From positions 992,001 to 1,056,000 of the forward strand of contig NZ_CP106855.1 in the NCBI RefSeq assembly GCF_002209355.2: a stretch of 64,000 bases of DNA. Reading direction: 5' to 3'. Each line of letters opens with the position of its first letter. The stretch's first letter is position 1. The notes under the pieces were generated by a model, which searched no databases, was not told the origin of the DNA, and was given only the letters and a program-made list of their open reading frames with translations. Position numbers and translations under genes: made by a program. Source of the stretch: Bdellovibrio sp. SKB1291214. GTDB taxonomy: Bacteria > Bdellovibrionota > Bdellovibrionia > Bdellovibrionales > Bdellovibrionaceae. Below are positions 19,128-25,634 of this stretch, piece by piece.

Positions 19128-19985
19128 ATGAGTATCAGAGTTGGAATCTCAGGATGGGTATATCCACCGTGGCGAGGCGTTTTCTATCCGGACGATCTTA
19201 CGATCAAGAAAGAACTTCAGTATGCAAGTCGACAAGTTTCAACGATCGAAATTAATGGTTCTTTCTATTCTAACCAACGCCCCGAAACATACACGCGGTG
19301 GTACAAAGAGACTCCCGATGATTTTTGCTTTTCGGTTAAAGGATCACGCTTTATCACGCACATTTTGAGACTCAAGAACTGTGAAAGAGCTCTAGAAAAC
19401 TTTTTCGGATCGGGAGTTCTTAATCTGCAACAAAAGTTGGGGGTATTTCTATGGCAGATACCGCCGAATCTTGTCTTTGACCCTGAGGTTATCGAAAAAT
19501 TCTTCCAGCTTTTACCTAAAACATTCGCAGAAGCCACCAAAATGGCAGATCGCTCGGAACGTTATGATAAGCATTATTCAGATCGTATCAGACGCTCAAA
19601 GCAAAAACTTCGCCATTGCCTCGAGGTTCGTCATCACAGCTTCGAGAATCCTGAATTTATCGCACTGCTTAGAAAGTATAATATCGCCTTAGTGTTCGCG
19701 GACACCGCTGGCAAGTGGCCCTACATGGAAGACGTCACTGCCGATTTTGTCTATGTAAGACTTCACGGAGACGAGGAATTTTATGTCAGCGGATATTCAC
19801 CAGAATCTTTGAGATGGTGGGCGGCAAGAATCGACAAATGGACAAAAGGAAAACAACCTGCAGATGCGTTAACCATCACTGAAGAGAAAATAAAAGCCCT
19901 ACCTCGCGATGTTTATATTTACTTTGATAATGATCTTAAAGTGAAAGCACCTTTTGATGCCAAAAGCTTAATTCAGATGTTATAG
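19128..19985 (+). CDS. DUF72 (YecE-like) family protein
   Basis: 285 residues, the normal length for DUF72, a TIM-barrel-like family of unknown function. The hallmark N-terminus is present (RVGISGWVYPPWRGVFYP), followed by STIEINGSFYSNQRPETYTRW and the later DFVYVRLHGDEEFYVSGYSPE, which hold the conserved pocket residues, and the end has IYFDNDLKVKAPFDA. Cytoplasmic. GAGGGACCT precedes the ATG. Its last six bases overlap the convergent flavin reductase gene. Confidence 0.92.
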   Translation: MSIRVGISGWVYPPWRGVFYPDDLTIKKELQYASRQVSTIEINGSFYSNQRPETYTRWYKETPDDFCFSVKGSRFITHILRLKNCERALENFFGSGVLNLQQKLGVFLWQIPPNLVFDPEVIEKFFQLLPKTFAEATKMADRSERYDKHYSDRIRRSKQKLRHCLEVRHHSFENPEFIALLRKYNIALVFADTAGKWPYMEDVTADFVYVRLHGDEEFYVSGYSPESLRWWAARIDKWTKGKQPADALTITEEKIKALPRDVYIYFDNDLKVKAPFDAKSLIQML

Positions 19986-20537
19986 ATATTCGGGCTTAAA
20001 TAAACTCTTCCGGCTAACATGTTTACCCGAGGTCATAAAGACACCATCCCCAGTATAATGGAAAGTCTTAGGATATTTTGGTGTTGTGGGTGCGTGAGCT
20101 TTGACAACCTCGAAAATAAAGAAATTATACGAGTTAAAAAGTTTTGTTTCGACGAGCTTGCATTCCAAGTTTGCAAAGCACTCCCTGATCAGCGGAGCAT
20201 CAACGGCATCCGCTTTTTCCGGGGTCAGATTGAATTCGGAAAATTTATTAACATCTTTGCCACTGCAATTGCCAATACGAACTGCTATATTCAACAACTC
20301 CACCGTAGGAATGTTGATCACACATTCTTTGCTTTTTCGAATCAGCTCGAAGCTGTGATTAGCTTGTGTAATCATGCATCCCACCAAAGAGGGTGAAAAC
20401 TCCAAAACGGTATGCCATCCCATTGCCATGATGTCAGTCTCGCCCTTGAATTGAGAACTCACCAAAGCTATGGGGCCCGGCTCTAAGAAGCGACGAACCT
20501 TCTCAACCGGAAAGTTTTTCTTTTTATAAACTTTCAT
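19980..20537 (-). CDS. Flavin reductase-like FMN-binding protein
   Basis: 185 residues of the flavin reductase-like domain family. The N-terminal block GPIALVSSQFKGETDIMAMGWHTVLEFSPSLVG binds FMN, and ECVINIPTVELL and LECKLVET are further family segments. It lies 17 bases downstream of the pterin dehydratase gene on the same strand, so the two are probably one operon. It may supply reduced flavin or act on a small aromatic substrate. There is no monooxygenase partner in the window. Confidence 0.85.
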   Translation of the reverse strand: MKVYKKKNFPVEKVRRFLEPGPIALVSSQFKGETDIMAMGWHTVLEFSPSLVGCMITQANHSFELIRKSKECVINIPTVELLNIAVRIGNCSGKDVNKFSEFNLTPEKADAVDAPLIRECFANLECKLVETKLFNSYNFFIFEVVKAHAPTTPKYPKTFHYTGDGVFMTSGKHVSRKSLFKPEYL

Positions 20538-20905: not shown

Positions 20906-21031
20906 CACTACCTCCTGTCCCCAATATTAGATTAAGAAAGAGTAATAAATAAAGAGTTCCCTGTGGACTTTGTCTTGACACATATTTTTTGGGGAATAGA
21001 TTTTTAGAATCACATAATAAAAGGAAAAAAC

Positions 21032-21466
21032 ATGTCAACGAACGTCCATATCGTATTTCCAATGTGCGCAATGTTTTTGCTAGTAGTAATTGTTTTAGGT
21101 GTCATGTTTTTCGGTAGAGTCAAAGCTGTACGCGCAGGTTCTATCAAAATTGGCTACTTTCGTACCCTCCAAGGCGCAGAACCTGCAGAGTCCATCCAGG
21201 CGGCCCGACACTTTATCAACTTATTCGAAGCCCCTGTTCTGTTTTATGTCGCATGTATTTTGGGATTGATCTTGCCCGTTCAAGCCGTTGGGTTTGTGAT
21301 TTTAGCCTGGGCTTATGTGGCAGCGCGCGCACTCCACGCATTCATTCATATCGGCAAAAATGATGTATTTAAACGAATGCGTGCGTATGGACTCAGCTGG
21401 TTGATACTTTTAGGGATGTGGCTCATGATCTTTTGGAAAGCGATCAGTATTGCCACAATTTCTTAA
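21032..21466 (+). CDS. MAPEG-family membrane protein
   Basis: 144 residues with four membrane helices. It shows the MAPEG pattern, a loop with RAGSIKIGYFRTLQGAEP after helix 1 and AARHFINLFEAPVLFY in helix 2, where Arg, Asn and Glu are the conserved glutathione-binding positions. Later segments are AWAYVAARALHAFIHIGKNDVFKRMRAYG. Bacterial members are membrane glutathione transferase or peroxidase relatives. It is a single gene, convergent with flagellin by four bases. An AAAGGAAAA site lies upstream. Confidence 0.88.
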   Translation: MSTNVHIVFPMCAMFLLVVIVLGVMFFGRVKAVRAGSIKIGYFRTLQGAEPAESIQAARHFINLFEAPVLFYVACILGLILPVQAVGFVILAWAYVAARALHAFIHIGKNDVFKRMRAYGLSWLILLGMWLMIFWKAISIATIS

Positions 21467-22296
21467 CCGATCAGTTTCAATGCCAACTGTGCGGATTGAT
21501 TTGCTTGCCCCAGAATAGAAGTTCCGGCCTGCAGTAAAATATTATTTCTAACCATCTCACTGGATGCGGCAGCAACATCAGTGTCTCTAATACGGCTGTT
21601 AGCAGCAGAAAGATTTTCTTGCATCACACCTAAATTGTCAGATGTGGATGTCAAACGATTCTGCAAAGCCCCCATATAAGCGCGAGTGCCATTGACCGAA
21701 GTTTGTGCCTCATCAAGTTTTGTTAAAGCTTGTTGAGCTGCTTCTTTGGTATCATATGATAGCCCATCTAAGCCCAGCGCACTTAGAGTGATGTTACTTT
21801 GACCAGCCTCAAAAGAAATACGGTCAGCAAATGAGTCATTATGTATACCCACTTGGAAATCAAAAGTGGGGGTCGTACCATCCAGAAGCTTTGTAGTACC
21901 CCACTGAGTCGTTTTAGCGATACGTTGAATTTCATCACGCAGTTGATGAACTTCTTTATTCAACATGCCACGTTCTTTTTCACCGATAGTGTCTGAGGCC
22001 GCTTGGATACCCAGCTCGCGAAGACGAACGATAATATTACCAACTTCATTCAAACCACCCTCAGCTGTTTGGATCATGGAAATACCATCATTCGCATTTC
22101 TTTGAGCCATAGCTGCAGAACGAATCTGCGCTTTCATGGATTCAGAGATCGCCAATCCGGCAGCATCATCCGCCGCTTTATTAATACGACTTCCCGAAGA
22201 AAGCTTTGCCATCGAATCATTGATAAGTCTTTGTGAACCTACCAGATTACGTTGCGCATTGATTGCAGCCATATTTGTTTGAATTCTCATTCCCAT
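21463..22296 (-). CDS. fliC: Flagellin
   Basis: About 277 residues, a short flagellin with the conserved D0/D1 ends (MRIQTNMAAINAQRNLVGSQ and the C-terminal SAANSRIRDTDVAAASSEM then LLQAGTSILGQANQSAQLALKLI) and almost no variable D2/D3. It polymerises into the filament after export by the flagellar type III system. Start codons at 22296 (MGMR) and 22290 (MRIQ) both fit: GGAG or AAGGA lie at suitable distances. The upstream in-frame ATG at 22347 is not typical for flagellins. A weak sigma-28-like CGATAG with TTAA lies near 22352-22380. No other flagellar gene adjoins it. Confidence 0.95.
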   Translation of the reverse strand: MGMRIQTNMAAINAQRNLVGSQRLINDSMAKLSSGSRINKAADDAAGLAISESMKAQIRSAAMAQRNANDGISMIQTAEGGLNEVGNIIVRLRELGIQAASDTIGEKERGMLNKEVHQLRDEIQRIAKTTQWGTTKLLDGTTPTFDFQVGIHNDSFADRISFEAGQSNITLSALGLDGLSYDTKEAAQQALTKLDEAQTSVNGTRAYMGALQNRLTSTSDNLGVMQENLSAANSRIRDTDVAAASSEMVRNNILLQAGTSILGQANQSAQLALKLIG

Positions 22297-22419
22297 ATCC
22301 TTTGTCTCCGCCGACATATTCTTCGGGAAACAAAGAAAGGACTTCACGAGACTATCGTTTTAGTTTTTTTGTTGTATTAAGATCTAATCTGAAGACCTGT
22401 AACGACGTGAAACAGTGAT

Positions 22420-23442
22420 TTATTTCTCCTGTGTCACTCCGAGATATGCAGCTTTAACCTGAGGATTAGTTAATAATTCTCTCGCATTTCCCTCAAGACG
22501 AATCACTCCTTGCTCCAAAACATAGCCGCGATCAGCCACCTGTAAGGCGCGAAATGCTAACTGTTCAACTAACAAGATGCTGGTGTTGCCCGCCTCTTTA
22601 ATTTTTTTAATGACCGAAAACATTTCATCAATAATCACCGGCGCCAATCCCATAGAGGGTTCATCCAACATAAGGATTTTGGGCTTCAGCATTAAAGCAC
22701 GGCCGATAGCAAGCATCTGCTGTTCTCCACCCGATAAAGTCCCAGCCAACTGACTATTGCGTTCTTTCAAGCGGGGGAAAATACCATAAACTTCTTCAAT
22801 AGTTTTTTCGATGTCAGCCTTCTTCTCAGTCTTTGTTCTTAAAAAGGCACCCAATACCAAATTGTCGTGAACACTTTGTTGAGCAAATATGCGACGGGCT
22901 TCCGGGCAGTGTGCTAGACCAAAGGCTACGCGTTTGTGCGCTGGTATTTTGTTGGCAAGCTTCCCCTCTATGTAAACGTCGCCAGATGCCGGTTCCACCA
23001 ATCCTGAAATTGTTCGCAGCAGTGATATATGGTGCTCAATAAGAAGAATCGCCAATCCCGCCTCTTTCACTTTGCGAATGATGGAATTAAACTCCTGAAT
23101 TTCACCAGACGTTAAACCCGCTGCCGGCTCATCAAGCAATAAAATTTTCGGCTGTAGAGCCAAGGCACGGGCAATTTCCAATCGTCTTGCTTGACCGTAA
23201 GCCTCCAAGCTTAAGTGCTCGTTCACGATCACTCGCGATTGAATGTCATCATTCGCCGCAGTTCTAAAAACATACTTCTCAGGATTATTTTGAAATAACT
23301 CGTTTACTTTCGCACCGGCGCTCACGTTGATATTCATGGGAACTTTTTTACTATTAGAATATTGAGTACTGGCATCTGCTGCACCGGTATTAATCGGTCC
23401 TAAGACTGCCACTACTTTCTCTTTATCCAGGAACTCGAGCAT
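22420..23442 (-). pseudogene. Fused remnant of liv operon: LivJ middle + LivG tail + LivF tail
   Basis: A 340-codon open frame made of three pieces. Residues 1-75 continue a branched-chain amino acid binding protein (KEKVVAVLGPINTGAADAST, then YVFRTAANDDIQSRVIVNE). Residues about 80-140 are the back half of a LivG ATPase (YGQARRLEIARALALQ, LLLDEPAAGLT, ILLIEHH). Residues about 141-340 are a LivF ATPase lacking its start (RTISGLVEPASGDVYIEG, LSGGEQQMLAIGRAL, LMLDEPSMGLAP, ending YLGV). Neither ATPase part keeps a Walker A loop, and no LivH or LivM remains, so it cannot be a working ATPase. The junctions lie near 23200-23217 and 23013-23024. Confidence 0.88.
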
Positions 23443-23690
23443 AATTTGCCCACCCCGTTCATTCTTGGCTCATCATCTCGGTCCACCATAGAGATTCTTT
23501 TACCCAGGACTCCACCAGCTGCATTGATTTCGTCGATAGCAACTTGAACGCCATTGCGCATGGAAATACCCATGGGCGCACTGCCCCCGGTGAACGGTCC
23601 ATAGACGCCAACCTTGATGTCATCTGATTTTTTAGTACATCCAGTAAATGCCATGGCTAGCACAAGCAGTGCAACCTTCGGAAGTCTCAT
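23412..23690 (-). pseudogene. 5' fragment of branched-chain amino acid binding lipoprotein (LivJ-like), frameshifted
   Basis: 92 codons: a lipoprotein signal with lipobox FTGC, then DIKVGVYGPFTGGSAPMGISMRNG and VAIDEINAAGGVLGKRISMV, the N-terminus of an ABC amino acid binding protein. After DDE the frame is lost. The +1 frame of the same bases reads on as AKNERGGQIMLEFLDKEKVVAV, which is exactly what the family has next. Restoring one G near 23467-23471 would rejoin the two frames. The downstream fused frame therefore belongs to the same ancestral gene. An AGGATACTTATG-type site is still present. Confidence 0.88.
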
Positions 23691-23958
23691 AAGTATCCTC
23701 CCACATTTAAAAAAATTCTTTGGGCGCCGTAACTTAAAGTCAAGGCAGCCACTTGTTTACGGAAGTTTGTGTCTGCAAGTACACTTGGATTTCACATCTG
23801 TGACTCGAACGGCGACAGTTTAAAACTTAACAAAGATGAGTGGAGCCGCGTCTAGGTCAAGGACGATCTAAGTATGATGCTCCATAATATTCATTGCGAT
23901 TCAACACGGTTTGTTCAAAAATTTGTAAAGTCTAAAATCACATCAAGGAGTAATAGAC

Positions 23959-24591
23959 ATGATGAAGACGTTTCTAACAGCAATGGTTTTGGTATTCGCA
24001 GTAACTGGTGCCCAGGCAAAATCAAAAGGTAAAGCAGCAAAAGCTGACGCAACTAAAACTGAATCTTATAAAGTCGATACTAAAGAAAGTACTGTCGCTT
24101 GGAAAGGAACTAAAAAAGCTGGTTCCGCTCACAACGGCAACATCTCAGTTAAAGACGGTGAAGTCCAAGTAGATAGCAAAGGTCAAATCACTTCAGGTCA
24201 AATCAACATCGACATGGCTACAATCACAAATGAAGATGTTAAAGACGCTGAATACAACAAAAAGCTTGTTGGTCACTTGGCTAGCAACGATTTCTTCGAC
24301 ATTGCAAAATACCCGACAAGCTCTTTCAAAGTTCTTAGCGTTACTCCAGCAGCTAATGGCCAAGTAACAGTTAAAGGTGAATTGACGATGATCGGTAAAA
24401 CGAACCCAATCGAGTTCCCTGCAAAAGTAACGGTTGATAAAGGCGTAGCTACTGCTGAAGCAACTGTTAAAGTTGACCGCACTAAATGGGGTCTTAAATA
24501 CGGTTCGGGCAACTTCTTCAAAGAGTTGACGGCAGATAAAGTAATCAATGACGAATTCGAAATGAATTTGAAGTTGGTAGCGAAGAAGTAA
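23959..24591 (+). CDS. YceI-family periplasmic protein
   Basis: 210 residues with a signal peptide (MKTFLTAMVLVFAVTGAQA), a Lys-rich spacer, and a YceI lipocalin-like barrel from about residue 35. Family blocks are KESTVAWKGTKKAGSAHNGNI, LASNDFFDIAKYPTSSFK and GELTMIGKTNPIEFP, ending with WGLKYGSG and INDEFEMNLKL. YceI proteins bind isoprenoid-type lipids in the periplasm. AAGGAG precedes two adjacent ATG codons; the first is used here. A clear terminator follows. Confidence 0.93.
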   Translation: MMKTFLTAMVLVFAVTGAQAKSKGKAAKADATKTESYKVDTKESTVAWKGTKKAGSAHNGNISVKDGEVQVDSKGQITSGQINIDMATITNEDVKDAEYNKKLVGHLASNDFFDIAKYPTSSFKVLSVTPAANGQVTVKGELTMIGKTNPIEFPAKVTVDKGVATAEATVKVDRTKWGLKYGSGNFFKELTADKVINDEFEMNLKLVAKK

Positions 24592-24617
24592 TTTCTTTCT
24601 ACAAATTCATGTAATGA

Positions 24618-24645
24618 AAGGCGTGGAGATATCCGCGCCTTTTTT
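24618..24645 (+). terminator. Intrinsic terminator after yceI-like gene
   Basis: AAGGCGTGGA pairs with TCCGCGCCTT (ten pairs, one wobble) around a GATA loop, followed by a T-run. Confidence 0.88.
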
Positions 24646-24716
24646 ATATCCAACTCTTAATGCTTTAATTCATTTCTCTCATCGCCTCCCCCGTTTTCTT
24701 TTGCTAGGTTCGGGCG

Positions 24717-25634
24717 ATGAAAAAATTTAGCTTTCTCCTAACGACAGCTCTGCTTATCGGGTCTTCGTCCTTTGCGCAAAGAACGGTTTCAGATTCGTTG
24801 GTATCCGATCTTCCTTGCGACAAGGTAACCGCCAACGAAATCTATCGACGTATGTCTCAGAACCAGTTTTCAAGCAGCTATCACATCCCTTTAACCAATT
24901 GGGGTGTCGAAGCGAAAAACGGACTTTATGAACTGGGTGTTTGTTGGTCGCTCTCGCGTGCTCAGCGCCTTTTATTTTATCTGAATCGATGGAACGAAAC
25001 TTCAACTGTTCGTGGTCCACAGACCCTTCAGGTTTTAAACATGCTTCGAGGGGATCCAACATATCCCGTCATCCTAAATTCAGAGACCTATCCTCGCACT
25101 GATTTAGGCATGCTTGGAAATTTAATGGATGGAGTGAGTTTTGAAAGAGGCGGTAAAAATTTGCATCGCAACTTCCGCTCGGAGATAGAAAAGTACCAAC
25201 TCGCGCGCTTTCACAAACTAGGAAAGAATCTAAAGTATCTAATTGGAAATGGAACTCGCAGCAAAACGAACAATCGCCAAACCAAAGATCAACTGGTGGG
25301 GAACCTACAAATTAATAAGTTAACAATGCTTATTGTAAGAGCGAACCGCATGGCCCAGCACGTGGTACTTGCCAAAAGATTTGAACGTCTCTCAAATGGT
25401 GATATTAATTTTTATGTCTACGATTCAAATCATCCTGGCGAAGACAATGTTCTTACCTATAACAAAGCGGATTCCCGGTTCTATTCGCCGGGCATTGTCT
25501 ATGGAGTGGTTCCCGCTAAAGACCTCAATGACTCCTTAGGAGTATATATAGTCGACGAACAAGAGCGCGATCCCGTCGAGAAGGTATTGGTCCGTTACTA
25601 TAGTTCTTTGTGTAGTTCTTTAAATAAGCCGTAA
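24717..25634 (+). CDS. Secreted protein with papain/C39-like Cys-His-Asp pattern
   Basis: 305 residues with a signal peptide (MKKFSFLLTTALLIGSSSFAQ). I know no close family, but three motifs fall in the order of papain-fold enzymes. ELGVCWSLSRAQ has Cys 76 at the start of a helix, MAQHVVLAKRF has His 215 starting a strand, and NFYVYDSNHPGED has Asp 236 / Asn 238. The YDxNxP element is common in C39-like and other papain-like peptidases. This makes an exported cysteine protease or transferase plausible, but it is inference. A terminator follows at 25665. Confidence 0.6.
   Translation: MKKFSFLLTTALLIGSSSFAQRTVSDSLVSDLPCDKVTANEIYRRMSQNQFSSSYHIPLTNWGVEAKNGLYELGVCWSLSRAQRLLFYLNRWNETSTVRGPQTLQVLNMLRGDPTYPVILNSETYPRTDLGMLGNLMDGVSFERGGKNLHRNFRSEIEKYQLARFHKLGKNLKYLIGNGTRSKTNNRQTKDQLVGNLQINKLTMLIVRANRMAQHVVLAKRFERLSNGDINFYVYDSNHPGEDNVLTYNKADSRFYSPGIVYGVVPAKDLNDSLGVYIVDEQERDPVEKVLVRYYSSLCSSLNKP

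Follow-up and report, generated by a model that had tools for sequence, protein, structure and literature searches.

A 1.27 kb stretch of liv-operon sequence on the minus strand of Bdellovibrio sp. SKB1291214, with a flagellin gene and a YceI family gene on either side, is best explained as a recent pseudogene of an accessory LivJ-LivH-LivMG-LivF (HAAT) operon, whose loss was probably tolerated and whose remains are drifting neutrally; we put the probability of this explanation at roughly 93%. The locus lies in a 64,000-nt stretch of the forward strand (GCF_002209355.2, NZ_CP106855.1, positions 992,001-1,056,000), here called the window, whose numbering we use throughout. What remains is livJ up to codon ~160, livG from the signature to the H-loop, and livF without its Walker A. 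A sequence-only reading had already described a whole liv operon collapsed into one fused pseudogene, and we reach the same diagnosis from the disabling lesions at the locus together with the intact operon in two congeners, G012 and G022. The case is an unremarkable instance of gene decay, resolved in good detail; our literature search found nothing specific to this locus.

Anatomy of the remnant and its junctions

The flagellin gene (21463..22347, minus strand) and the YceI family gene (23959..24591, plus strand) are the conserved neighbors of the operon. The first part of the remnant is an ORF at 23412..23690 (minus strand), in which a lipobox signal peptide and ~74 native LivJ codons (Peripla_BP_6, E 5.7e-14) are followed by a shifted tail of 18 codons. 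An alignment with four intact livJ genes locates the single-base loss that breaks the frame (23467..23471, minus strand). The sequence-only reading was right to propose a missing base here, which falls between 23470 and 23471, the four intact relatives being one base longer; however, the letter they carry differs from the one it had proposed. livJ continues in another frame (23204..23470, minus strand) up to the first deletion junction, so that the VIVNE motif, which had been taken as the last LivJ residues, does belong to LivJ but is not its end, which lies at about 23204. Comparison with the intact relatives places a second single-base loss just before the junction (23211..23214, minus strand); the residues LSLE of the fused frame are LivJ DNA read in the wrong frame as a result. 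Relative to G012, livJ has thus lost single bases at two places.

Junction 1 (23202..23204, minus strand; base 23203 assigned to neither side) leads from livJ into the livG half of livMG. The livG piece (23027..23202, minus strand) has 58 codons with 98% protein identity to G012 and carries the ABC signature (AYGQARR), Walker B, the D-loop and the H-loop (EHH). At junction 2 (23025..23027, minus strand; base 23026 assigned to neither side) it gives way to livF just after the Walker A. The livF piece (22420..23025, minus strand) runs from SLLRTISGL to the native end, lacks the Walker A and corresponds to residues 47-247 of G012 LivF, with 91.5% protein identity. All three pieces are thus present where they had been described, with 81-98% protein identity to the intact G012 orthologues, far above chance. 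In the ORF listing they are fused by a 340-codon open frame (22420..23442, minus strand), whose start codon (ATG 23442) is internal to livJ.

We placed the junctions to within 1-3 bases by alignment to the corresponding G012 locus (L038). Deletion 1 comprises L038 6947-10045, or 3,099 bp, which held the remaining 3' portion of livJ, then livH, the livM part of livMG and the 5' portion of its livG half. Deletion 2 comprises L038 6514-6770, or 257 bp, in which livG ends and livF begins, up to and including the Walker A of livF. The first jump had been described as cleanly in frame, which it is not: the frame across junction 1 results from the deletion together with the one-base livJ loss beside it. 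Nor do the two sides of the second join have SLL in common; these residues are LivF sequence (GKTSLLRTISGL), and LivG has EMM. In the parental sequences of the four relatives, which do not include the immediate ancestor, the identity shared at either join amounts to 0-2 bases at most. Because of this, recombination at microhomology, which had been offered as the origin of the deletions, is possible but not supported.

The claim that LivH, LivM and both Walker A loops were lost withstood closer analysis. No Walker A motif occurs in any frame of the region, Pfam yielded no permease match among the window ORFs, and a tblastn search with LivH against window positions 21001-25000 had no match, while BPD_transp_2 permease domains are found in LivH and LivMG of the intact operon in L038. 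The LivG and LivF pieces retain signature, Walker B and H-loop motifs, the Walker A alone being lost. The binding protein is incomplete, as only ~160 of ~388 LivJ codons are present and these are frameshifted. The NCBIfam LivF model scored 216.8 bits on the window against a cut-off of 441, which does not discriminate here, since intact G012 LivF is also below it at 245.7.

The gene order and domains of the pieces are those of the LivJHMGF (HAAT) branched-chain amino acid ABC transporter operon in its LivM-LivG fused form. In contrast to that operon, the window has no LivH, no LivM, no N-terminal half of LivG, no LivF Walker A and not the C-terminal ~60% of LivJ, so that two permease domains, ATP-binding subunits with a Walker A and a complete LivJ, which a functional HAAT (Liv) transporter has, are all missing. 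The locus rather shows two features of a liv-operon pseudogene: it is disabled by a frameshift and by deletions of essential motifs, and a sister species has the orthologous operon intact in the corresponding place. Like other bacterial pseudogenes formed by internal deletion and frameshift of redundant genes, it has this intact orthologue in place, an intact paralogue, a frameshift and deletions that span gene boundaries; unlike them, it merges several genes into one open frame.

The accessory and the core operon in the genus

Our genus sample comprised 24 genomes, that of the window and 23 congeners. The accessory operon is patchy, with 5 of the 24 carrying it whole or in remains. An intact orthologue of it is found in four congeners: in G012 and G022, the two closest, it has the flagellin and YceI genes of the window on either side, confirming that relatives have an intact operon at the same place, and in G005 and G015 it lies elsewhere. 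In congeners without it, YceI is found in different neighborhoods or is conserved on the downstream side only. The order of the intact operon is livJ, livH, fused livM-livG, livF. LivG and LivM had been treated as separate genes; both were indeed part of the ancestral operon, but in the relatives' intact operon they form one protein of ~611 codons (BPD_transp_2, ABC_tran and BCA_ABC_TP_C). Fused LivM-LivG proteins of ~610 residues are encoded in the accessory liv operons at L038 6629-8464, L039 6725-8557, L040 7703-9535, L041 8270-10102 and L072 6798-8627.

The same four-gene operon, with 73-78% protein identity, is found in a MAG labelled Bacteriovoracaceae. This, and the varying location among congeners, suggests that the accessory liv operon has moved within the Bdellovibrionota. 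A further local difference concerns a flavin reductase-like gene (PF01613), which follows a DUF72 gene in the window (19980-20537); the syntenic stretch of G012 (L038 3968 to 4044) is too short for one.

A diverged second LivJ homologue is present in 24 of the 24 genomes. In the window's own genome, this core operon, located at about G000:C1 3467399-3471909, is complete, with LivJ, LivH, LivM, LivG and LivF of 373, 300, 326, 269 and 237 codons (L126), and its proteins are 30-51% identical to those of the intact orthologue of the collapsed operon. Judging from this retained paralogue, redundancy with the core operon was probably what allowed the loss. Members of this predatory genus obtain amino acids from their prey.

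The accessory operon was already at this site in the ancestor that the window's genome shares with G012 and G022. It then suffered two deletions (~3.1 kb and ~0.26 kb) as well as one-base losses at two places, at the cost of LivH, LivM, most of LivJ and the Walker A motifs of both LivG and LivF. With the intact core liv operon kept, this was probably tolerated, and the remnant would be drifting neutrally. Whereas the anatomy, the ancestry, the site, the recency relative to species divergence and the retained paralogue are established from the sequences, we infer that redundancy was the cause and that the drift has been neutral, and likewise the order of the lesions.

Age of the collapse

To date the event relative to the divergence of the species, we compared rates over the 381 remnant codons, with G005 as outgroup. 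The dN from G005 was 0.116 for the window, close to that of intact G012 (0.110) and G022 (0.108), and dS was saturated. On the branches, dN was 0.031 for the window and 0.025 for G012, with a bootstrap 95% interval of the difference (−0.012 to +0.021) that includes zero. This relative-rate test, made with one strain of the species, therefore detects no elevated amino-acid substitution in the remnant, which, with dS saturated, points to a recent collapse, as the sequence-only reading had supposed. From these substitution patterns, the lineage of the window was under strong purifying selection for most of its history, and the collapse is late, recent relative to species divergence. The few replacements at residues that agree in the three compared intact proteins (V>A, I>N and I>T in LivJ) would fit a slight recent relaxation.

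Alternative explanations

The open 340-codon frame and the motifs kept in the LivF and LivG pieces, except for the Walker A, are what we count against a pseudogene. They would be expected if the frame were maintained as a working protein, for example as an ATP-less NBD-like regulator starting at the internal ATG 23442. In simulations, however, such frames escaped a stop codon in about half the cases at 0.02 substitutions per site and in one fifth of them at 0.05. Since the remnant has changed little after the collapse, its open frame is unsurprising and no evidence of a working protein. Further, the frame hinges on the one-base loss beside the junction, it begins with LivJ mature-domain sequence and lacks a signal peptide, and a Walker A is found nowhere. 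The LivJ-LivG-LivF fusion is also absent from all 23 other genomes of the genus; the sequence-only reading would have held its presence in many relatives, under purifying selection, against itself. We thus rejected the fused frame as a conserved gene, and consider a working product highly improbable. Least likely of all is its expression from ATG 23442 with some new function, for instance as a titrator or regulator of an ABC ATPase that partners the core Liv transporter.

Somewhat less remote, though still very unlikely, is an assembly or sequencing error, by which the assembler would have collapsed an operon that is intact in the true genome. Both one-base losses do lie in short A runs, which are error-prone on some platforms. 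Yet the genome is a single 3.68 Mb contig, 99.99% complete, and one fault could hardly account for all of the lesions: the two deletions lie apart from each other in sequence that is not repeated, single bases are missing at two places, and residues invariant among intact LivJ proteins are replaced. Contamination with G012 is incompatible with a DNA identity of only ~75% between the pieces and that genome.

As a pseudogene, the locus offers a snapshot of how the several genes of an operon can end up as a single misleading open frame shortly after becoming dispensable. It also holds a warning for annotation, as the 340-codon frame may be called automatically as an ABC transporter ATP-binding protein (340 aa) despite having no Walker A.
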